Shown here: positions 5,186 through 41,026 of the stretch, piece after piece | How positions within the stretch are numbered: the stretch's first letter is position 1 | Layout: each line of letters opens with the position of its first letter | Assembly: GCF_014696135.1 (NCBI RefSeq) | Contig: NZ_JACJPP010000016.1 | Span: 1-41,026, forward strand | Length of the DNA: 41,026 bases | Origin: Nodosilinea sp. FACHB-141 | GTDB taxonomy: Bacteria > Cyanobacteriota > Cyanobacteriia > Phormidesmidales > Phormidesmidaceae | Direction: 5' to 3' | Program-made: the position numbers and the translations under genes | Notes under the pieces: model-generated | What the model saw: only the letters and a program-made list of their open reading frames with translations | Databases searched by the model: none | Told to the model about the DNA's origin: nothing

Positions 5186-6082
5186 CTACAGCTCCTTACG
5201 AATATCTAGCACGCGTAGAATCGAGACGATGATCAGCATGGTCACGGCTAACAGCACGATCGCATTAGCCGCCGCCAAGGGATACTGCAAACTACCAATC
5301 TGGGTCTGAATCAGCTTGCCAACCGATGCTGACTGCCCGCCCCCCATGAGGCGAACGGTCACAAACTCGCCCATTACTAACGTGACAATGAAGATTGAGC
5401 CGATCGCAATGCCCGGTGCCGATAGCGGCAAAATCACTTCCTTAAAAACCTGCAGGCCAGAAGCGCCGAGGTCTTCAGCTGCAGTTACTAAGGAGCGCTC
5501 GATTCGCATCAAACTGTTAAAAATGGGCGCAATCATAAAAATGATGTAGAGGTGCACCATACCCAGCACCACCGCAAAATCGGAGTAGAGCAGAAACTCC
5601 ATCGGCTGCTGAATCAGTCCAACACCCATAAACATTTGGTTGACCAATCCCTCCCGCCCCAGCAGCGGCACCCACGAGATCATCCGAATGATGTTTGAGG
5701 TCCAAAACGGAATCGTGCAGACCAGGAACAGCAAAATTTGCCACTCTAGCTTAGGCACATGGAACGCCAAGAAATAGGCCACTGGGTAGCCAATCAAGAG
5801 CGTTGCTAGCCACACCATTCCCAAAAACTTAAACGTATTTAGATAGGTCTTAAAGGTAACGTCGGTCAAAATGCCCTGGTAGTTAGCCAGGGTAAAGGCT
5901 GGAGTCATTGAGTAGCCGTTGAACTCCCAAAAACTTACTACCCCAATCATGAGAATGGGGAACACTAGAAACAGCAGAAATACCAACGTCTGAGGCGTAA
6001 TTAGCGCGTAGGGCTTGAGGGCTTTCCAGGTTTCAGACATGGGGAGGGGAAGGGGGGTGATGGAGTGGAGAGTGATGGACAT
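5186..6082 (-). CDS. potB: ABC transporter permease, PotB-like
   Basis: 298 residues from the first ATG. A second ATG at 6040 (MSETWKALKPY) would remove 14 residues and is also plausible; neither has a clear ribosome site. Six membrane helices are visible, starting around residue 33. An EAA loop (AAEDLGASGLQVFKE, about 201-215) contacts the ATPase. PotB and PotC form the heterodimeric channel. The gene follows the binding-protein gene after a purine/pyrimidine-rich hairpin region. Confidence 0.86.
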   Translation of the reverse strand: MSITLHSITPLPLPMSETWKALKPYALITPQTLVFLLFLVFPILMIGVVSFWEFNGYSMTPAFTLANYQGILTDVTFKTYLNTFKFLGMVWLATLLIGYPVAYFLAFHVPKLEWQILLFLVCTIPFWTSNIIRMISWVPLLGREGLVNQMFMGVGLIQQPMEFLLYSDFAVVLGMVHLYIIFMIAPIFNSLMRIERSLVTAAEDLGASGLQVFKEVILPLSAPGIAIGSIFIVTLVMGEFVTVRLMGGGQSASVGKLIQTQIGSLQYPLAAANAIVLLAVTMLIIVSILRVLDIRKEL

Positions 6083-6090
6083 CAGGAAGG

Positions 6091-6170
6091 TAGGGGGGAT
6101 GGAGAAATAGAGAAAATGGGGGACGGGGAAAATCCTTACTCCCCTACCCCCTCACTCCATCCCCCCCCTA
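6091..6170. repeat. G-rich/C-rich inverted repeat between potD and potB
   Basis: TAGGGGGGATGGAG at 6091-6104 pairs with CTCCATCCCCCC followed by CCTA at 6155-6170; the stretch between is low-complexity G/A-rich then C/T-rich. In the mRNA this would be a strong hairpin between the abundant binding protein and the permeases, where it could lower downstream expression. It also resembles cyanobacterial intergenic minisatellites. Confidence 0.6.
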
Positions 6171-6175
6171 CTCTT

Positions 6176-7480
6176 CTACGACGCGATAAACTCGTTCCAC
6201 TTCTGCACCAGATAGGTGTTTTCTTCCATGGTCGAGTTCCAGCAGACGATGTTGCCAAAGCGCTCGTCGAAGGAGCCACCGTCGCGGGCCGCACCGGCCT
6301 TGGCAAGGGTTTTACCAAAGGGGTCAACGATGTCTTCGGCGGCGGGCTTGCCTTCGTACCAAAAATCCCATTCCGAGGTAGACATGAACTTGCGGGCGGT
6401 CTCGGGGGCGGCGCTGTAATAGCCTTGGCGTCCGAGGAAAGCGCCCACCCAGCCGTCGAGCATCCAGTTGATGTACTCGTAAGCGGCATCGAGGTTTACA
6501 CCCTCCAGGTTTTTGGAGAGGCCAATGCCGCCGCCCCAGCCCCGATAGCCCTCCTTGAGGGGAGCGTAGATGCACTCAGTGCCCTGGGACTGCACCGCTG
6601 TCACCGCTGGCGACCACATCGATTGCAGCACCACTTCCCCAGAGCTCATCAGGTTGACTGATTCGTCAAAGGTCTTCCAAAAAGCGCGGAATTGGCCGTT
6701 GGCCTTTTGCTCTTTGAGAATCTCGATGATTTGGTCAATTTCGGCCTTGGTCATGTTGCCCTTGTCGGCAAAGGTCATGAGGCCGAGTGACTCGGCCACC
6801 ATAGCCGCATCCATAATGCCGATTTGCGGAATGTCGAGAATGGAGGTTTTGCCCTTAAATTCTTCGTTGAACAGCTCGCCCCAGCTCTCAATGGTTCGAC
6901 CTACCAGGTCAGGGCGATAGCCCAAGGTGTCGGCGTTGTACTGGAAGGGAATCAGGGTGGCGTAGTCGGTGGGGGTGTCAGAAAACTCTTTGGAGTCGGC
7001 ACCCGCAAGGTATTGCACCTTGAAAGGAGCGGTACCCTGAGATTTTTCGACCGGCATGCCTTTGAACTCGCCGGTTCTGAAAAAGGACACAATCTTGTCG
7101 TAGTTGGTGATGCGCTTAATGTCGATGGGCTGAAGATTACCCGAGGGCACTACTAAGGGCAGGCTGAAGTACTCACCATCAAAGATGTCGTATTGGCCGG
7201 GCTGGGTGATGGCAATCTGGTTGTTTTCTTCAGTGCTGAGGGCCCGCATGTCGAACTTAAAGCCCAGGTCTTCCTGGGCCTTGTCTCGAATGTCATTGAT
7301 TTGCGACACGCCGGTACCGATTAGCCGCAGGGTTACATCCTTGCTTTGGTTGGTGTTGACCTGGGGGCCGGTGGCCGGGTTATTGGGGGTGCCTGAGGGC
7401 GCGGCGCAGCGGGTGGCGGTCAGGAAAGCGCCAGCGGCGAGGCTGGTGCGAATCACTTGGCGGCGAGAAAACTTACCCAT
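6176..7480 (-). CDS. potD: Extracellular solute-binding protein, PotD/spermidine-putrescine type
   Basis: About 434 residues from ATG 7480 (MGKFSRRQVIRTSLAAG); an upstream ATG at 7489 adds three residues. The N-terminus has a twin-arginine signal (SRRQVIR) followed by a hydrophobic stretch and a Cys near residue 25, which might be a weak lipobox. The mature part has the two-lobed family-1 binding-protein look (FDGEYFSLPLVVPSG, LIPFQYNADTLGYRPD, WGGGIGLSKN). It would capture the solute in the periplasm and deliver it to PotBC. The substrate is inferred from the cluster and not proven by ligand residues. Confidence 0.86.
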   Translation of the reverse strand: MGKFSRRQVIRTSLAAGAFLTATRCAAPSGTPNNPATGPQVNTNQSKDVTLRLIGTGVSQINDIRDKAQEDLGFKFDMRALSTEENNQIAITQPGQYDIFDGEYFSLPLVVPSGNLQPIDIKRITNYDKIVSFFRTGEFKGMPVEKSQGTAPFKVQYLAGADSKEFSDTPTDYATLIPFQYNADTLGYRPDLVGRTIESWGELFNEEFKGKTSILDIPQIGIMDAAMVAESLGLMTFADKGNMTKAEIDQIIEILKEQKANGQFRAFWKTFDESVNLMSSGEVVLQSMWSPAVTAVQSQGTECIYAPLKEGYRGWGGGIGLSKNLEGVNLDAAYEYINWMLDGWVGAFLGRQGYYSAAPETARKFMSTSEWDFWYEGKPAAEDIVDPFGKTLAKAGAARDGGSFDERFGNIVCWNSTMEENTYLVQKWNEFIAS

Positions 7481-33802: not shown

Positions 33803-35602
33803 CTAGGCGATCGCACTGATCTCAGGGGTGAGCGTTACGATTAGGTCGTTAAAGTCAAAATCTCCGGCATCTTCAAACAGCCACGTATTGCCCTCACGCT
33901 TGATGCGCGCCTGCCCTAGGGCCGCGTCGCCCACCGTTGCCAGGTTTTGCAGGCTGCCGTCGATCAGCAATGCTGGCGCATAGTAGGTTCCGCCAGGAAG
34001 GTTTAGCGTCACATCAATGCTTTGATTGTTGCCAACCATTAGCTCGATGCCGTCCAGCAGGTTGGCGGCGACAGCCACCTCATAACCAGCGTCTCCAGGC
34101 AGCAGACCATCCACCTGTCCTCGAGCATCGGTCTCGTAAAAAGCCAGCACGTTGTCAAAGAAGGCCTCGCGGAACAGCTGTTGAATCACGTTGACCGCCA
34201 CGTTGCCGTCAAAACCGGTCAGGTCAAACAATTCAGGCAAGGGCTCAACGTCGGCGATCGCGGGCGCGGCCGTCAATCCCTGAAAATTGATCGTGTCGTC
34301 GGTGCCGATTGCTCCCAGACTAGTTGCTACCCCAGACTCAAGATTGAGGGCATACAGGGTTGCATCAGACACCGCAAACGCTGTATTGTCTCCTGCCGAG
34401 GAAGCCACAATTTCGAACCCCCCCAAACTGTCAAGGTCAAAACCCAGCCCGCCTACCGTTTGCAAGGTGCCATCGTTGGGCGGGTTTTGCAGCACCAGAG
34501 TGTTGAGCTCAGCGTCAAGGTCAAAGAGCTGCGTCGCTGTAGTACCCGCAAACGAGTTGGTGTAGGCTGCCCCAGTTACCCTGGGGTTAGCTCCAGCATT
34601 GGCATCTCCAGGGCCAAAGGCTAAGGTTCCGTCCACAATTACCGCGCCGGTATCGACATTGATGCGGAAGCTTTGATCGTTCTCACCCACTAGACGCAGG
34701 CGATCGGCCACGGGGTTAAAGTCAAAGCCCGAAACGGCCCCGCCTTCAAAGGGCTGAGCTAGGGTGCTCACCAGCGTTGCTTCAGCCACGTCGCCCTTGA
34801 GGGCTAGAGTGTAGAGCTGGTTGGTGGTCGTGAGACCGTAGAGTAATCCATTGGCCGGACGCACATCCACGCCTATGAGGGTGCCTTCAAGACCAGTCAC
34901 AGATAACGAGGTTGTCTGAGCCAGATTTCCGGTAGAAAACAGCACGAGCTGATTGTCGTCAGTCAGCCCCAACAGGTCAAATTCTTGGGGTGGCGGGGTC
35001 GGCGCGACGGTTTGGGCACCGGTCAGGGCAATGGTGTAGGCACCGCCAGAGGCACCCTCGCCAGCAAACCCCATTAGCGGGGAGCCTGCACCCGATCCGG
35101 TGGGCAACAAAACGCCATCCAAGGATTCGTCGGGGAAGATTTCCCCACCGGTGCTGATAGGGTCGTAATCAAACCCAGAAATGGCCAGGTAGTAAATGCC
35201 GGGAGTGAGCAAGCCTGATTTGGAGGGCAAGGTTGCCTGGGCCGAGCCAAACAGATCGTCGTTGCCATAGACGCCTTTGCCCGCGCCATCGAACAAAAAG
35301 AGCTGGGGATCTTCCAGCAGGCTGTTGGGAATCCCCAACGCATTGTCGATGGGCAGGCCAAGCAGGGTTTCTGCACTTAGCGTCGTTGCAGAAAAGGGCT
35401 GCTCGCCCGAAATGAAGATTTGAAAGAGATCGGCATCTCCAGAGAGGCTGCCAGAGATTGACGCTAGTGGCTGTACTAGATCAGCAACGACGGAGAAGGC
35501 CCCGTCAGGCTGTTCTCCAGCATCATTAGCTTCGACAAAGGCAAGGGGCTGAGGGGCCGAGGGGGTCTCAGAATTGGGGGCTTCAGCATCAAGGGGGCTC
35601 AT
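33803..35602 (-). CDS. Exported-type protein with DUF4394 and DUF4114 domains
   Basis: 599 residues. The N-terminal ~190 residues resemble a pre-peptidase/DVUA0089-like domain (ISGSLSGDADLFQIFISGEQPF). DUF4394 spans ~208-460, a beta-propeller-like set (LLGLTDDNQLVLFST, RLRLVGENDQSFRINVDTG, GAAYTNSFAGTTATQLFDLD). A C-terminal DUF4114 has DAGDFDFNDLIVTL, an Asp/Asn calcium-type motif. No classic Sec signal is visible, and the acidic, Gly-rich composition recalls type I secreted calcium-binding proteins. Role unknown; 109 bp upstream of the DUF4331 gene. Confidence 0.82.
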   Translation of the reverse strand: MSPLDAEAPNSETPSAPQPLAFVEANDAGEQPDGAFSVVADLVQPLASISGSLSGDADLFQIFISGEQPFSATTLSAETLLGLPIDNALGIPNSLLEDPQLFLFDGAGKGVYGNDDLFGSAQATLPSKSGLLTPGIYYLAISGFDYDPISTGGEIFPDESLDGVLLPTGSGAGSPLMGFAGEGASGGAYTIALTGAQTVAPTPPPQEFDLLGLTDDNQLVLFSTGNLAQTTSLSVTGLEGTLIGVDVRPANGLLYGLTTTNQLYTLALKGDVAEATLVSTLAQPFEGGAVSGFDFNPVADRLRLVGENDQSFRINVDTGAVIVDGTLAFGPGDANAGANPRVTGAAYTNSFAGTTATQLFDLDAELNTLVLQNPPNDGTLQTVGGLGFDLDSLGGFEIVASSAGDNTAFAVSDATLYALNLESGVATSLGAIGTDDTINFQGLTAAPAIADVEPLPELFDLTGFDGNVAVNVIQQLFREAFFDNVLAFYETDARGQVDGLLPGDAGYEVAVAANLLDGIELMVGNNQSIDVTLNLPGGTYYAPALLIDGSLQNLATVGDAALGQARIKREGNTWLFEDAGDFDFNDLIVTLTPEISAIA

Positions 35603-35988
35603 GCAAACGCTCCTATGCCGGGCACTTGAACAAGGTTCAAGTCAACCCTGCTGGATAAGGTTTTCATGGCAACTACGCTTAACTTTGTAAGGCAGATTTA
35701 AACCCGGAAATACGTAAAGAAACTTTACACATCTTCCGTGGCGAAGTTCTTTCGCCTTGGCTAAACCGTCGAAATGGTTGTGCGTCGTTGGTTTTGGTCT
35801 AGCTATTAAAAATTTACGGTCGTCGCCGAGCAGCTAGAACGGTCTGCATTGCCTTTGATCGCGATCGCTGTACACCACGCACTACCTCAGTTTTTGCTGG
35901 TAGTACTGACTGGATGGCTTAAGCGCAGCAGCCATCACTATGAGGCCATTTTTATGGAAGCGGCTTGAGAGTTTTACCCGTCGCCGAC
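35603..35988. other. Intergenic region upstream of the DUF4394 gene
   Basis: 386 bp without a supported gene, between the DUF4394 start and the stop of the glycosyltransferase gene. It is AT-richer than its neighbours and should hold the promoter of the minus-strand cluster. One HIP1 octamer lies near 35862. Confidence 0.5.
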
Positions 35989-36729
35989 CTAACGAACCTC
36001 CTCATAGAATCGATTTAGGGTAGTAGCAGGTACCCCAATGCCCCACAGCACACCGATCATCAAATAAATGGCGTTGGCCTTTAAAGTTCCCCATGCAGCC
36101 ACCCGCCGGTCCGAGGATTGAACGACCCGGCTAAGCTGGCACAGGCGACCCCGGCGGCAAAGCTTGAGGCATAGGTCAGCTTCTTCCATAATCGGCAGGG
36201 CAGGGTCGAAGCCGCCACAGGCAATAAAGTCAGCTCGGCGGCAAAACATGACCTGGTCGCCAAACAGCAAGCGCAGCCCACGCACAAATAAATGGGGCCG
36301 AAACAGCAGCGGCGCGTAGTAGGTTTTGAGAGCATTGTGCAACGAAATGCCCCAGCGAATTTTTTGCGGTCCGGTCATTAGAGAAATGAATCCGCCGCCA
36401 GATACCGTCGGGTTGGCTAAGGTGCTTTCTACGACCTGTACCAAGTCGTCGGGAATGAGGGTGTCGGCGTGAAGAAAACACAGCACGTCGCCCTTGGCGG
36501 CAGCGGCTCCCCAGTTCATCTGTACCGATCGCCCCGGAGCTGGAGCTTGGAGCACCGTTAATGGCAGGCGATCGGTCCAGGCATGGGCGATCGCTAGGGT
36601 GCGATCGTGGCTGCCCCCGTCCACCAATAAAATTTCGCGCGGAGGTGGGTTGAGACCTTGCAACACATTTAGGGTACGGCCCAGACAGGTCTCTTCATTC
36701 CAGGTGGGGATGATGATAGAAACCGGCAT
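35989..36729 (-). CDS. TIGR04283-like family 2 glycosyltransferase (arsenosugar biosynthesis type)
   Basis: 246 residues from ATG 36729; a TTG at 36741 is also possible. GT-A fold with SIIIPTWNEE at the N-terminus, ILLVDGGSHDRT for nucleotide-sugar binding, and LCFLHADTLIPDDL as the metal-binding Asp region. A C-terminal hydrophobic segment (AIYLMIGVLWGIGVPATTL) anchors it. TIGR04283 proteins are named for their link to arsenosugar genes. The partner-type gene TIGR04282 is at 27207-27857, 8 kb away; no arsM is in the window. Confidence 0.83.
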   Translation of the reverse strand: MPVSIIIPTWNEETCLGRTLNVLQGLNPPPREILLVDGGSHDRTLAIAHAWTDRLPLTVLQAPAPGRSVQMNWGAAAAKGDVLCFLHADTLIPDDLVQVVESTLANPTVSGGGFISLMTGPQKIRWGISLHNALKTYYAPLLFRPHLFVRGLRLLFGDQVMFCRRADFIACGGFDPALPIMEEADLCLKLCRRGRLCQLSRVVQSSDRRVAAWGTLKANAIYLMIGVLWGIGVPATTLNRFYEEVR

Positions 36730-36942
36730 GGTACACCCCAAAGATGAATAAACCCCAATACGGCATAACTTTGCCGCCCAAAAGCAAAAACAGCCACCCT
36801 CACCAGGCTGAACCTCAGTCCCCTCAAATGTTTTTAGTCTGCTATATGCTACGGTATCTCGGCTTTGGAAACGATCAGAACAAAAGTTAGCTCAGTCGTG
36901 CACTGAGGTAATCATCGATGCTATATTAAGTATCGCGAATAC

Positions 36943-37016
36943 GGCGGGTGTAGCCAAGTGGTTAAGGCAGTGGATTGTGATTCCACCATTCGTGGGTTCG
37001 AGCCCCATCATCCGCC
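36943..37016 (+). tRNA. trnH: tRNA-His(GTG)
   Basis: Cloverleaf parts are all present: acceptor GCGGGTG (36944-36950) pairing with CATCCGC (37009-37015), an extra encoded G at 36943 opposite C at 37016 as is typical of tRNA-His, D-arm with AGTGGTTAA, anticodon loop TTGTGAT (GTG) and a T-arm GTGGGTTCGAGCCCCAT. CCA is not encoded. The gene is intact. Its anticodon-side segment at 36964-36982 is the target of the homing guide at 37249-37267. Confidence 0.97.
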
Positions 37017-37023
37017 CTTGTTT

Positions 37024-37088
37024 TGTTGAACGACAGTTTATCTGTCCGTGGCGACAATTTAGCTGTCACAGCGTCAGTTTAAGTGTCC
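37024..37088. mobile_element. Candidate type V-K CAST transposon end with three TnsB-site-like repeats
   Basis: TGT at 37024 is followed by GACAGTTTATCTGTCC (37032-37047), GACAATTTAGCTGTCA (37053-37068) and GTCAGTTTAAGTGTCC (37073-37088), spaced 21 and 20 bp. This layout resembles the ends of type V-K CAST elements as I remember them. The first base lies exactly 60 bp past the GTT PAM (36961-36963), and reported insertion distances are about 60-66 bp. The five bases TGTTT (37019-37023) are the predicted target duplication; the far copy is not in view. Which transposon end this is cannot be decided here. Confidence 0.8.
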
Positions 37089-37090
37089 TT

Positions 37091-37133
37091 CGCCCTTCTG
37101 TAACCTTTGCTGGTAAAGAGTTACAGAGGGGCG
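37091..37133. other. Long hairpin beside the transposon end
   Basis: CGCCCTTCTGTAAC (37091-37104) pairs with GTTACAGAGGGGCG (37120-37133) with one G-T pair, and CTTT/AAAG extends the stem inward. It lies between the TnsB-like sites and the homing guide. It could stop guide transcripts coming from the right or block read-in from the tRNA. Confidence 0.65.
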
Positions 37134-37248
37134 AGGCTTTCCATGAAAGCCACTTTTCCCTGCTAAGGCAGAGCACTGACTTTACACGAGCTTATTTTTA
37201 TTGAGCAATATTATGATTTGCAGTGCTTTTGGGACCGGTTTCTGTAGA

Positions 37249-37275
37249 AATCACAATCCACTGCCTTCTTTCAAC
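37249..37275 (-). ncRNA. Stand-alone (delocalised) homing guide matching tRNA-His
   Basis: On the minus strand the repeat-type 3' handle GTTGAAAG (complement of 37275-37268) is directly followed by AAGGCAGTGGATTGTGATT (complement of 37267-37249). These 19 bases match the tRNA-His gene at 36964-36982 without mismatch; the 20th differs. The target is preceded by GTT, the GTN PAM of type V-K. Only the last eight bases of the repeat are recognisable here, and 16 bases separate this handle from the last array repeat. This fits published delocalised guides used by V-K CASTs to home to tRNA genes. Confidence 0.85.
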
Positions 37276-37291
37276 TCGCTAAACTTGGACA

Positions 37292-37906
37292 ATTTTAACT
37301 TCCCCTGGCTAGGGTAATTGATTGTGACTAGCTGAAGACCTCGCGTGGAACTGGGCACAGCCCTTTCAACCTCTCCTGGCTAGGGTGATTGATTGTGACC
37401 TGTGCCACCTGTATATTTGCCAGCGACGACCAGATGGCCTTTCAACCTTCCCTGGCCAGGGTGATTGATCGTGACGAATTTCGTTGGCCTCCACTGCCGC
37501 CGTTAGTTGTCTTTCAACCTCCCCTGGCCAGGGTGATTGATTGTGACTGAAGTCGTTAATGGACCGGCATCTTTGCTAGTCTTTCAACCTCCCCTGGCCA
37601 GGGTGATTGATTGTGACATACCGATGTAGGTTCACCGGCGGACTACTCGTGCTTTCAACCTCCCCTGGCCAGGGTGATTGATTGTGACTTAGGGGTAATG
37701 TCGCCGCCAGTGAATTGCTCAATCTTTCAACCTCCCCTGGCCAGGGTGATTGATTGTGACGGCCTATGCAGCGCTCACGCAAGCGAGCACGCTGGTACTT
37801 TCAACCTCCCCTGGCCAGGGTGATTGATTGTGACCTCCGCGGGCGTAGGTTGCTGGGAACTTTGTATTTCTTTCAACCTCCCCTGGCCAGGGTGATTGAT
37901 TGTGAC
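37292..37906 (-). CRISPR. CRISPR array, 9 repeats of 37 bp, 8 spacers, type V-K-like
   Basis: Repeats start at 37292, 37363, 37439, 37511, 37581, 37652, 37724, 37798 and 37870. Spacers are 33-39 bp (34, 39, 35, 33, 34, 35, 37, 35). On the minus strand the repeat begins GTCACAATCAATCACCCTGG and ends CCAGGGGAGGTTGAAAG, close to V-K CAST repeats in its GGTTGAAAG end and CCC...GGGG core. The six right-hand repeats are identical; 37439 and 37363 have two changes each and 37292 has five. Decay at the left and the handle orientation place the leader on the right and transcription leftward. No adaptation genes are in the window. Confidence 0.96.
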
Positions 37907-38107
37907 CGCAGACTTCTCAAAAGCTCTTAGATTAAGGCTTTCAGAAGTCATTTGCGCGGATCGGCTCATCCATCCCGACTGTACTGGTTAATTAGTGGAG
38001 CTTTTAACCTCTACAAAGACCTGGAATGCCTGTTTGATAAGCATTTCAGCCTTTACGCGGATCGCTCAGGAGAATTGCACCTTGAGAAAGTCCCTCAAAC
38101 CCAGTAT

Positions 38108-38383
38108 TGGAGCGAGTTCCTCCTTGTTCGGAGGTGATTCGGTAGCCGCTACAGCAGTACATCCGCACCCCTATTGCTGGGAGCGCACCTACGCCATAAT
38201 TGAGGTTACTAGCACGTCAACTACGACTTAATCTCTTCGGAGAAGCCTAAGCCTCTCGTCCGACAGCATCAGGGCGAGTAGCTACCAGGGCCAGAAAGCA
38301 CGGCTGTCTTCTAACAGCCAAACTAACCCTTATTTCACACGACTCAGAGGCTAAAGCATGAGTCGCGGCGCTATTGAACTATT
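38108..38383 (-). ncRNA. tracrRNA of the type V-K system
   Basis: Read on the minus strand, this ~276-nt stretch follows the Scytonema CAST tracrRNA as I recall it: ATAGCGCCGC near the start, GGGTTAGTTTGGCTGT, TTTCTGGCCCTGGTAGCT, then GGTGCGCTCCCAGCAATA, GCGGATGTACTGCTGTAG and GGCTACCGAATCACC. It lies between cas12k and the array, the normal position. The middle part (about 38186-38265) is roughly 50 bases longer than the published RNA I remember and contains extra hairpins. The anti-repeat probably uses AAC and CTCC near 38108-38117 against GGAGGTT of the repeat, with a bulge. The ends are estimates. Confidence 0.88.
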
Positions 38384-38433
38384 CAGTTTTCCAGGTTCAA
38401 AGCTTTTGGCCCATTGTAGTACAGGCTTTAGTT

Positions 38434-38925
38434 CTAAGATACTACTGTCTGTCTGGACTCATAGGCTGCGATCGCAACTGCCTTGGCCATCTCACCAGCA
38501 TTCTGCTGCCAGGGCTGTTTAACGGCTTCTACGACAAGCCTGTTCTGAGCGGCTTTGCTCTCGATTTGAGCCAGTAGTCTGCCGTAGCTCCACTTGTGGA
38601 TGCTGCTTTTGTACTGCTTGGCATAGCGTTTCTGGCCTTCTACTGAACCTAAGGCCTTTTGCTCGGCTTTGGCCTCAATTTCGGCTTGGAGAATCTCACG
38701 GATGTTGTCTTACCTGGGAACGGCAATACTGCCCGCTCCGTATTGCTGGGCAGTGGCCACCACAGCCTTCGCTAGAAGCTGATCGACATGCTCACCCAGG
38801 TTAGAGTGTTCTTGCCCTGGCGCTGAGCTTCATGGCGATTATGGAATTGTTTACCTTGTTCTCGCCGTTGCCGGAGAAATAGGGCGATGACGTGGGGTAT
38901 AGGTTGTCGTTGAAAGAGTTTAGCA
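38434..38925 (-). pseudogene. cas12k: cas12k remnant (truncated, frameshifted, premature stop)
   Basis: The minus strand encodes the C-terminal third of a Cas12k. Segment one reads RQRREQGKQFHNRHEAQRQG (~38870-38810). After a frameshift near 38810 comes NLGEHVDQLLAKAVVATAQQ, then YGAGSIAVPR, a TAA stop near 38711, then DNIREILQAEIEAKAEQKAL and KWSYGRLLAQIESKAAQ, ending AYESRQTVVS with TAG at 38434. The WSYGRL and EIxAxAEQK blocks are characteristic of Cas12k, the naturally nuclease-dead effector of type V-K. The N-terminal two thirds are absent. The gene is therefore not functional in this copy, barring sequencing errors. Confidence 0.88.
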
Positions 38926-39715
38926 GTAAGCTTAAACCAAACCCTTTGCCTTACGTTTAATTGTTAGCTTAACAACAACGTAAAGCATGTATGAAGTTGA
39001 TGTATGTTTATGCCAACCTTTAACAAGTCATACTTCTACACAAATATATATCAGCCTTTGCTGAAAGGGTTGCGCTTGGCCCGCTTAAACCGAGTATGCT
39101 TATAAGTTATGCCGGTGAGAATTCCAGGCGGCTTGACTCCCCCTTAAACAAGAATTTTCTAGAAGAAATGCGAATGCTCTCATGGACTGAGAGCAGCATT
39201 TTCAGCATTCCAGGATGTTCCAATTCTGATCCCGCTTAGGACTAAAGCTAGCTAAGTCAAGCAATATCAGCTTTTCGCCTTGTTGATATTATTTTTGCCA
39301 TTGGCCAAGCTTACTAATGCTGTAACTACCTCTATCCTTAAGAGTCAAATTGACTTGTGGTAGCAAATTATTTGCTTCTTAGGGATGCGGTAGCACAGGG
39401 ATAAACATTCTGGTGCTGTACAGCAAAAATCTGGTTATTGATAGACAAGAGACTTAAACTCCTTGCCTAGGCTGAACTTAGGTCGGCATAGTTTATGCCA
39501 TCGAGAACTAGTACTCTAAAGGCGAAATCTCTTCGACTATCGTCGCGCCTGTGGTAAGCAATGACTTTGCGACAGCGGACAAATTTACGTCGTGAAGTGC
39601 TGGCATATAGCTGATGTATGCCTAGGTTCTCTGGGAGCAAGAAAATTGCGAATAAGCTTGCCTTAAAAGATGAATCTGCGAATTAAGTAAATCAAGAAAC
39701 TGAGAATTTAGAAAC
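38926..39715. other. Eroded intergenic stretch beyond cas12k
   Basis: 790 bp without a supported gene, AT-richer than the rest of the window and with stops in all frames. It contains no recognisable tnsB, tnsC or tniQ segment. A single motif GGACAAATTTACGTCG near 39578 faintly resembles the TnsB sites at 37032-37088, but stands alone. Confidence 0.55.
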
Positions 39716-40456
39716 ATGAATTATTTAAGACGGGGCCTCGAATCAATTATGACAGGGAGCTTAAGCGCTATTCCAACAAAAGCTGGAAAGGTAATGAGAG
39801 TCATAGGATTTCGGCCCTTATTAGGCAATTAGATAGTTCTGCAACAGTTGGCTCAAGAGATAGGTTCAGTGGCACAAATTGAATCGCTATTGAGAAAGGT
39901 GTTTGGATTAATCAATATGCTGAGATTCATAGTGGGGGTAATCTCATTCAAATTCGAGCTAATGCAGCTATTGACCTCGGTGTGAGCATTAGAGATTGTG
40001 ACCATCAGGGTCAGTCAAGTGGCATTGTTATTGGAAGAAAACTCGGGGTTAGGGCCTTACTGCTGCTTAGCAGGTCCTGGAGCAATTAATATTGGCAGAA
40101 ATTGTATGATTGCATCGCACTGCTGCATATATGCCAACAATCGTGGGTTTGACGATCTAACAAGACCTATACATTCTCAACCATTAACTACGGTAGGAAT
40201 AACAATTGAAGATGACTGTTGGCTAGGCACGGGAGTTAAAGTGCTTGACGGAGTAACTATTGGCACAGGGAGTGTGATTGGAGCTGGTGCCGTTGTTAGC
40301 CGTGATATCCCACCATACTCGGTAGCTGTAGGGATACCCGCTAGAGTAATTAAAAGCCGTAAAAAACAACTCTCTACTGGCGCGGATAGAGATAAAATTC
40401 ATTCGGAGTTAGGTAATCGCGACCTGCTCACGAAAAGCGTCGTAGATGAAAGATGA
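39716..40456 (+). pseudogene. Acyltransferase pseudogene (left-handed beta-helix, WcaF/LacA type)
   Basis: Begins at ATG 39716 (MNYLRRGLESIMTGSLSAIP). The frame breaks near 39830 (TAG) and again near 39885 (TGA), continues in a second frame (GVWINQYAEIHSGGNLIQIR), then shifts near 40045 to a third frame that stays open to 40456 (CLAGPGAINIGRNCMIASHC). Hexapeptide repeats and the GIPARVIKSRK end identify an O-acetyltransferase of the polysaccharide-modifying type. At least three lesions make it inactive. Only the last part, from 39998, looks like an intact reading frame, and its apparent N-terminus is out of frame for the family. Confidence 0.85.
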
Positions 40457-40676
40457 TTGTAAGCAAAGCCCCTCAGATCGTGTCTGGAGGACTTTGTTTT
40501 GTGCGGATGTTTGGTGGTCCTCACTGATGGTCCTTGGTGGATTTCACCGGTGCTACCAAGAGGTTTTAGAGTAGTTGAGTGGTAATAGTCCAGGATAGTG
40601 TTGGACAAATTTTGGAACGTTTCACGGAAGAGCTGCCAAGGGAGATTCAAAAGTTTTTGCGGCACAGCCAACCTTT

Positions 40677-40852
40677 CTACGCTGCGATCGCAGCGTGCTC
40701 GATGAGTCTAGCGACGGCATCTGGATGAGACACCATCACAACATAGGATACGCCACTGACGAACACCGTTTCCTTCGAGTTGGCGCGCTCCGCCATGAAG
40801 GAGAGGGCAGCTGCCGGAATGTTTAAGTCGCGATCTCCATAGATGAACTAGG
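40677..40852 (-). pseudogene. Alpha/beta-hydrolase C-terminal remnant
   Basis: The minus strand reads FIYGDRDLNIPAAALSFMAE, then SKETVFVSGVSYVVMVSHPD, then AVARLIEHAAIAA and a stop at 40677. This is the acid-His end of an alpha/beta hydrolase, though the catalytic His seems to be the H of SHPD rather than in the usual place (YVVM where HVVM is expected). A TAG replaces the Trp expected before FIYG, and no upstream part is present. Confidence 0.72.
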
Positions 40853-40857
40853 ACGCC

Positions 40858-40897
40858 CAAGTTCTCGGTAGGATGCGACCTCGCCACCGAGAACTTG
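40858..40897. repeat. Inverted repeat in the eroded end region
   Basis: CAAGTTCTCGGT (40858-40869) and ACCGAGAACTTG (40886-40897) pair exactly around a 16-base loop. It sits just upstream of the hydrolase remnant, where the rest of that gene should be, so it may mark an insertion or deletion junction. Confidence 0.6.
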
Positions 40898-40928
40898 AAA
40901 GCATTCCTTCGTCACCCTTCTGCGCCTG

Positions 40929-41026
40929 TTATCTGTAATCAGTCGATTCAGCTAGCGCGCGCCATTGTGCCGTTTCTTGCTCTACATAAGCGTTCTTCTT
41001 GGCAATCGCTTGAAGGGTATCGGTGC
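40929..41026 (-). CDS. 3' end of an unidentified gene running off the window
   Basis: The minus strand is open from the window edge to a TAA at 40929, reading TDTLQAIAKKNAYVEQETAQ then WRALAESTDYR. The even helical composition suggests a real C-terminus, but 32 residues are too few to assign a family. Confidence 0.45.
   Translation of the reverse strand, partial: TDTLQAIAKKNAYVEQETAQWRALAESTDYR

Follow-up and report, generated by a model that had tools for sequence, protein, structure and literature searches.

Does the short guide that lies beside a tRNA-His gene belong with the transposon end that separates the two? The window analysed here is a whole contig of 41,026 bp (G000:C16; G000 denotes its own genome). 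The original prediction took the agreement of handle, PAM and distance at this locus as a sign of RNA-guided insertion, and hence as a record of how the element arrived. Homing of type V-K CRISPR-associated transposons (CASTs) has reportedly been treated by Saito 2021 and by Hsieh & Peters 2021.

The homing target is a tRNA-His gene (anticodon GTG) at 36944..37017 on the plus strand, called by ARAGORN and as Rfam RF00005, which faces the element. Inside it lies a 19-nt protospacer (36964..36982, plus strand), detected as an inverted-repeat match and directly preceded by GTT at 36961..36963 (plus strand), a GTN PAM of the kind given in the excerpts of PMC9938897. The anchor, or homing, spacer occupies 37249..37267 on the minus strand; a genome-wide pattern search returned it through its 19-nt match to tRNA-His, with which it forms an inverted repeat of 19/19 nt (100%). 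Read along the minus strand, the truncated repeat R* (37268..37280, AGCGAGTTGAAAG) comes first and the spacer AAGGCAGTGGATTGTGATT follows; R* is identical in 7 of 10 tabulated loci. The 19-nt match with its coordinates, the abutting handle and the GTT had all been predicted correctly, and so had an end 60 bp past the PAM, where the transposon-like sequence TGTTGAACGACA starts at 37024.

The match is specific to this position. The window contains 12 GTTGAAAG sites on both strands, and the R* site alone is followed by 19 nt matched elsewhere in the window, the longest such match at the remaining 11 being at most 10 nt. With up to two mismatches allowed, tRNA-His and the guide copy are the sole two sites of the 19-mer in the whole genome, and its reversed control pattern has 0 occurrences there. 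A tRNA fragment of this kind could in principle stem from an integrase-type element, for which the tRNA-His of one relative, G017, is also an apparent site, or could be a chance repeat. We reject both origins for the guide copy as almost certainly wrong: R* adjoins the match, the copy runs in the opposite orientation to the tRNA and is unique in the genome, and the same layout recurs beside tRNA-His, tRNA-Gly, tRNA-Val (GAC) and tRNA-Val (TAC) genes. We are nearly certain that the window holds a homing site of some V-K CAST. The relatives' Cas12k, the array, the truncated repeat, the GTN PAM, the 60-bp spacing, eight other loci and the published description all agree with a type V-K CAST that homed to tRNA-His through a short delocalised guide, and together they support this reading well.

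Among the 10 tabulated loci, nine including the window have an intact guide, with 17 to 20 matching nt and a GTN PAM in every case (9/9); the tRNA-Gly locus on contig C11 of the own genome, with its degenerate guide, is left out of the intact count. A TGT end stands 59-62 nt from the PAM in eight of the nine, that of the own tRNA-Val locus (59) having been chosen by sequence only. The ninth, in G247, is altered: at 60 it reads AGTAGAGCGACA, and its presumed right end reads TGTAGAGCGACA. The guide pattern occurs in three stretches of an 84,980-species collection. L006, L007 and L008 are stretches that are also contained in G022, G017 and G019, respectively, and G008 is a fourth relative; the same-genus genomes include contigs of Nodosilinea sp. 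LEGE 07298, Nodosilinea sp. FACHB-131 and Leptolyngbya sp. FACHB-60, the last of these (L008) being held in G019. When the tRNA-His sites of 26 genomes of the genus were sorted by eye, an end with a guide was found in four (G008, G019, G022 and the own genome), end fragments with no guide in the fetched stretch in five (G003, G004, G009, G020, G023), a displaced end and guide in G017, and no end in 16.

Two of these sites deserve a description of their own, in which ends of the TGTACAGTGACAC type are called class A and those of the TGTTGAACGACA type class B. In G004:C22 (L043, L110) the tRNA-His is followed by TGTACAGTGACACTTTATTTGTCACTGTACA, a near-palindromic remnant resembling fused transposon ends. 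In L007 (G017:C23), positions 5481-6943, a class-A end and His guide adjoin the 3′ part of tRNA-His; the intact tRNA-His of G017 lies about 75 kb from this displaced end, and a frame beside the end has a sub-threshold Phage_integrase match (22.2 bits vs a cut-off of 27.1). Here an integrase element may have inserted into tRNA-His, between the tRNA and the transposon.

It is in its end that the window departs from its relatives. The class-A His elements of G008, G017, G019:C68 and G022 share guide and R* with the window, their guide match being 20 nt in G008, G019:C68 and G022 and 19 nt in the window. All four, however, carry the class-A end TGTACAGTGACAC that characterises the His-homing lineage, whereas the window carries TGTTGAACGACA, of class B. 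This class-B left end spans 37024..37088 (plus strand); it was recognised by the positions of its TnsB-site-like GACA/TGTC pairs and by its likeness (84% over 88 bp, E 3e-20) to G019:C44:251077-251165, its sole close match among 388 genomes of the class. The next matches, in G247 (E 2.5e-6), G221 (1e-4) and G162 (0.004), fall at ends that resemble those of V-K elements and adjoin tRNA genes or a stretch like a tRNA; at most two candidates per genome were scored in this search, so weaker relatives of the end may be missed. With all candidates scored, the class-B end is present in 2 of 63 family genomes, the own genome being one of them, and a comparison with plasmids gave no match. The junction at 37023/37024 agrees with G008, where the host bases CCCTTGTTT are identical and the different end of that element begins 2 bp later. 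TGTTT at 37019..37023 (plus strand), directly ahead of the junction, is a candidate target-site duplication, seen in this one copy; the contig ends at 41026 before any right end.

An element of class A throughout, brought in by its own guide as originally supposed and differing just by divergence of its left end, would fit guide, PAM and spacing. We consider it very unlikely, as the window end matches the class-B end of G019:C44 and the class-A end is kept in every His-guide relative, with flanks and module 86-93% alike. Because the end class at 37024 is unlike the end beside the His guide in these relatives, end and guide may, by their sequences, differ in history. The original prediction is therefore sound as to guide-directed V-K homing and too strong in reading the element's arrival directly from the sequence; the agreement of handle, PAM and distance is real, but it is the expected signature of a known transposon type and nothing new.

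Inward of the guide, the window's array, tracrRNA region and cas12k remnant are all class A by similarity. A repeat search places the CRISPR array at 37292..37906 (minus strand), with nine repeats of 37 nt of which the terminal ones are degenerate; its spacers matched neither phages nor plasmids. The tracrRNA region, assigned by homology and position, follows at 37907..38436 (minus strand) and contains an 8-nt complement of R* at 38111-38118; Rfam over 35000-41026 returned tRNA alone and no match for this region. In all six elements that were examined, R* carries AGCGAGTT, the exact complement of AACTCGCT in the tracrRNA region, and the array repeats read GAGGTT at the position of AGCGAGTT in R*. 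The energy of the R*-tracrRNA duplex is no better than that of shuffles (67/200 as good).

The cas12k gene, as had escaped the original prediction, is a broken remnant: similarity identifies 38437..38906 (minus strand) as the C-terminal part (about residues 468-628 out of 628), which changes frame once, contains a TAA stop and is 90% identical to the Cas12k of L007. The effector of the relatives (L007 Cas12k) matches Cas12k proteins whose structures have been solved. Neither a tns gene nor a right end is reached before the contig stops at 41026, and we predict that the element as assembled could not move by itself. An open frame with hexapeptide transferase repeats (PF00132) at 39998-40456 is perhaps cargo of the element or of its remnant.

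Over 37907-38890 the window is 86.3-92.3% identical to G017, G022, G008, G019:C44, G012 and G016 (975-979 positions), 89.1% to G019:C76 (847 positions) and 79.6% to G002 (900 positions). Its nearest match is the class-A His element of G017 (92.3% over 979 positions), with G019:C44 at 87.9%. Over array flank, tracrRNA and cas12k together, the class-A His elements of G008, G017 and G022 are 88-92% like the window, and in G019:C68 only 88 nt matched. A module tree of 11 rows, nine of them different, from which G021 (no match) and L008/G019:C68 (for its 88 matched nt) were left out, does not decide between the two leading accounts of the locus set out below.

The same pairing of a class-B end with a class-A module occurs in the element that supplied the closest match to the window's end. 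G019:C44 lies at a tRNA-Gly gene and spans 251077-290024 (38,948 bp). Its left side reads, in order, class-B end at +60, hairpin, relic of a class-A end and 17-nt Gly guide, and inward of the guide come an array and a tracrRNA region, both of class A, and a Cas12k frame that is open. TniQ, TnsC (TniB family) and TnsB (Pfam) of another lineage follow 32 kb on, and then a class-B right end of the TGTTGCGCGACA type. The gene content is thus mosaic. Its Cas12k is 85.2-89.3% identical to those of class-A G008, G012 and G017, while its TnsB reaches 41.5-42.7% and its TnsC 38.7-39.1% against the same three genomes, among which TnsB is 90% identical. Against G247 the values are 58.4% for TnsB, 60.4% for TnsC and 35.1% for Cas12k, and those for TniQ fall in between (58.9-60.7% to G008 and G017, 54.4% to G247). 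In these comparisons Cas12k and TnsB stand on separate contigs in G247 and in G017, each pair being assumed to belong to one element, and the TnsB of G000:C11 was left out. By similarity, the class-A module would represent a lineage common in this genus and class B a second V-K lineage.

The right end of G019:C44 is directly adjoined, on its outer side, by a class-A end that is older and has a relic of a Gly guide, so that two V-K elements are stacked at one tRNA gene. G019 is listed with 6% contamination; a misassembly is nevertheless disfavoured, because two joins would be needed and the window, in another genome, combines end and module in the same way.

We therefore ask how the window came by its combination. 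Because its end class differs from the end beside the His guide in the four relatives, we favour, at a probability of roughly 60%, a decayed mosaic in which a class-A guide, array and Cas12k module lay between class-B V-K ends as in G019:C44. Class-B ends on both sides of G019:C44 give a full precedent. Both loci have a class-B end at +60 and a hairpin ahead of a class-A guide, array, tracrRNA and cas12k module; in the window the hairpin is an inverted repeat just inside the end (37090..37134, arms 37090-37104 and 37120-37134), at the place equivalent to that in G019:C44. Unlike the window, G019:C44 has a 17-nt Gly guide, a class-A end relic between hairpin and guide, open Cas12k, TniQ, TnsC and TnsB frames, and a right end.

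The main rival accounts for the same sequence. A class-A CAST may have come first to tRNA-His, a class-B CAST may then have inserted ahead of it at +60, and a deletion may have removed the class-B body together with the class-A end, leaving the guide of the older element beside the end of the newer. Between hairpin and guide, where relatives have the class-A end, the window has 108 bp (37141..37248) whose similarity to the class-A end and to the class-B right end is no better than that of shuffles; just short matches of 23-34 nt were found, which we treat as chance. By eye, some of these fall within a conserved host gene, and one adjoins a hairpin in another genome. A stretch that matches neither end class suits this sequence of events, as do the protospacer, still intact after insertion, and the module, nearest to the class-A His element of G017; the class-B right end of G019:C44, next to its older class-A end and Gly guide relic, is a precedent for stacking. 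This account nevertheless requires an insertion plus a deletion, and it leaves the class-B end and hairpin ahead of a class-A module to be explained in the window and in G019:C44, which a shared mosaic explains once. We regard it as somewhat unlikely.

The same observations count against the mosaic: its module is nearest to G017 rather than to G019:C44, and the class-A end relic of G019:C44 is absent. The shuffle-like energy of the R*-tracrRNA duplex counts against it as well, as do the contamination listed for G019 and the own genome, in which no class-B TnsB was found at E<=1e-100 and no right end like that of G019:C44 by similarity search. One Mu-transpos_C match is present, on C11, 43 kb from the open Cas12k frame of a tRNA-Val element.

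That tRNA-Val (TAC) element, at G000:C11:760218-763306 and 806742-806921 (L099, L100, L156), is a second V-K element of the own genome; its open Cas12k frame is 39% identical to class A, it has a 17-nt anchor guide with a GTA PAM, and TnsB, TnsC and TniQ matches lie about 43 kb on. At G000:C11:248436-248800 (L190), a relic of another V-K element stands after a tRNA-Gly gene and consists of a class-A end, a Gly guide that is degenerate and a single repeat.

If the window descends from a mosaic, its guide would have been transcribed, R* would have paired with tracrRNA, TnsB would have bound the class-B end, and the class-A His guide would have directed that end to tRNA-His, the missing right half presumably encoding class-B TnsB and TnsC. 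We see an even chance of something more general, namely that V-K transposons swap whole guide-plus-Cas12k modules between distant transposase backbones at common tRNA sites, the window being a decayed product and G019:C44 an intact-looking one. Ends and transposase from one lineage would then be directed by the guide and Cas12k of another, although TnsB is about 42% and TnsC about 39% identical to the proteins usually found with them, and stacked insertion at one tRNA gene would provide the meeting place. No title on V-K module swapping was found in the open-access literature and listings, and we do not claim that it is unpublished. What would matter here is the mismatch of guide and end, from different V-K lineages: in a full relative, G019:C44, the transposase set that accompanies Cas12k shares only about 40% identity with the sets usually found beside it. 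Such a mismatch would make the contacts that limit Cas12k-TniQ-TnsC compatibility directly testable with natural parts, and it suggests that sharing one tRNA site is a route by which V-K transposons trade targeting modules.

The homing mechanism itself is known, as "anchor spacer" homing of type V-K (Cas12k) elements is described in the excerpts of PMC9938897, which covers 118 V-K systems that have a clear cas12k. According to those excerpts, the left end usually lies downstream of a tRNA gene that points at it, with the array in reverse orientation; R* carries a spacer, usually of 17 nt, that matches the tRNA next to a GTN PAM; and the distance from PAM to end is 46 to 82 nt, with one exception of 147. 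The excerpted part of PMC11406308 adds that the att-site crRNA is truncated and apart from the array in nearly all cases and that most att sites are tRNA genes; PMC11656645 and PMC10293859 were likewise consulted in excerpt. With anchor-guide homing already known, the finding as originally posed adds one member. Like the published systems, the window has a left end downstream of a facing tRNA gene, an array of 37-nt repeats in reverse orientation near that end, a truncated repeat with a short spacer matching the adjoining tRNA gene, and a GTN PAM (GTT) at a distance, 60 nt, within the 46-82 nt range. Unlike them, it retains cas12k as a remnant, has no tns genes or right end on its contig, and bears an end of a class that does not go with its guide module.
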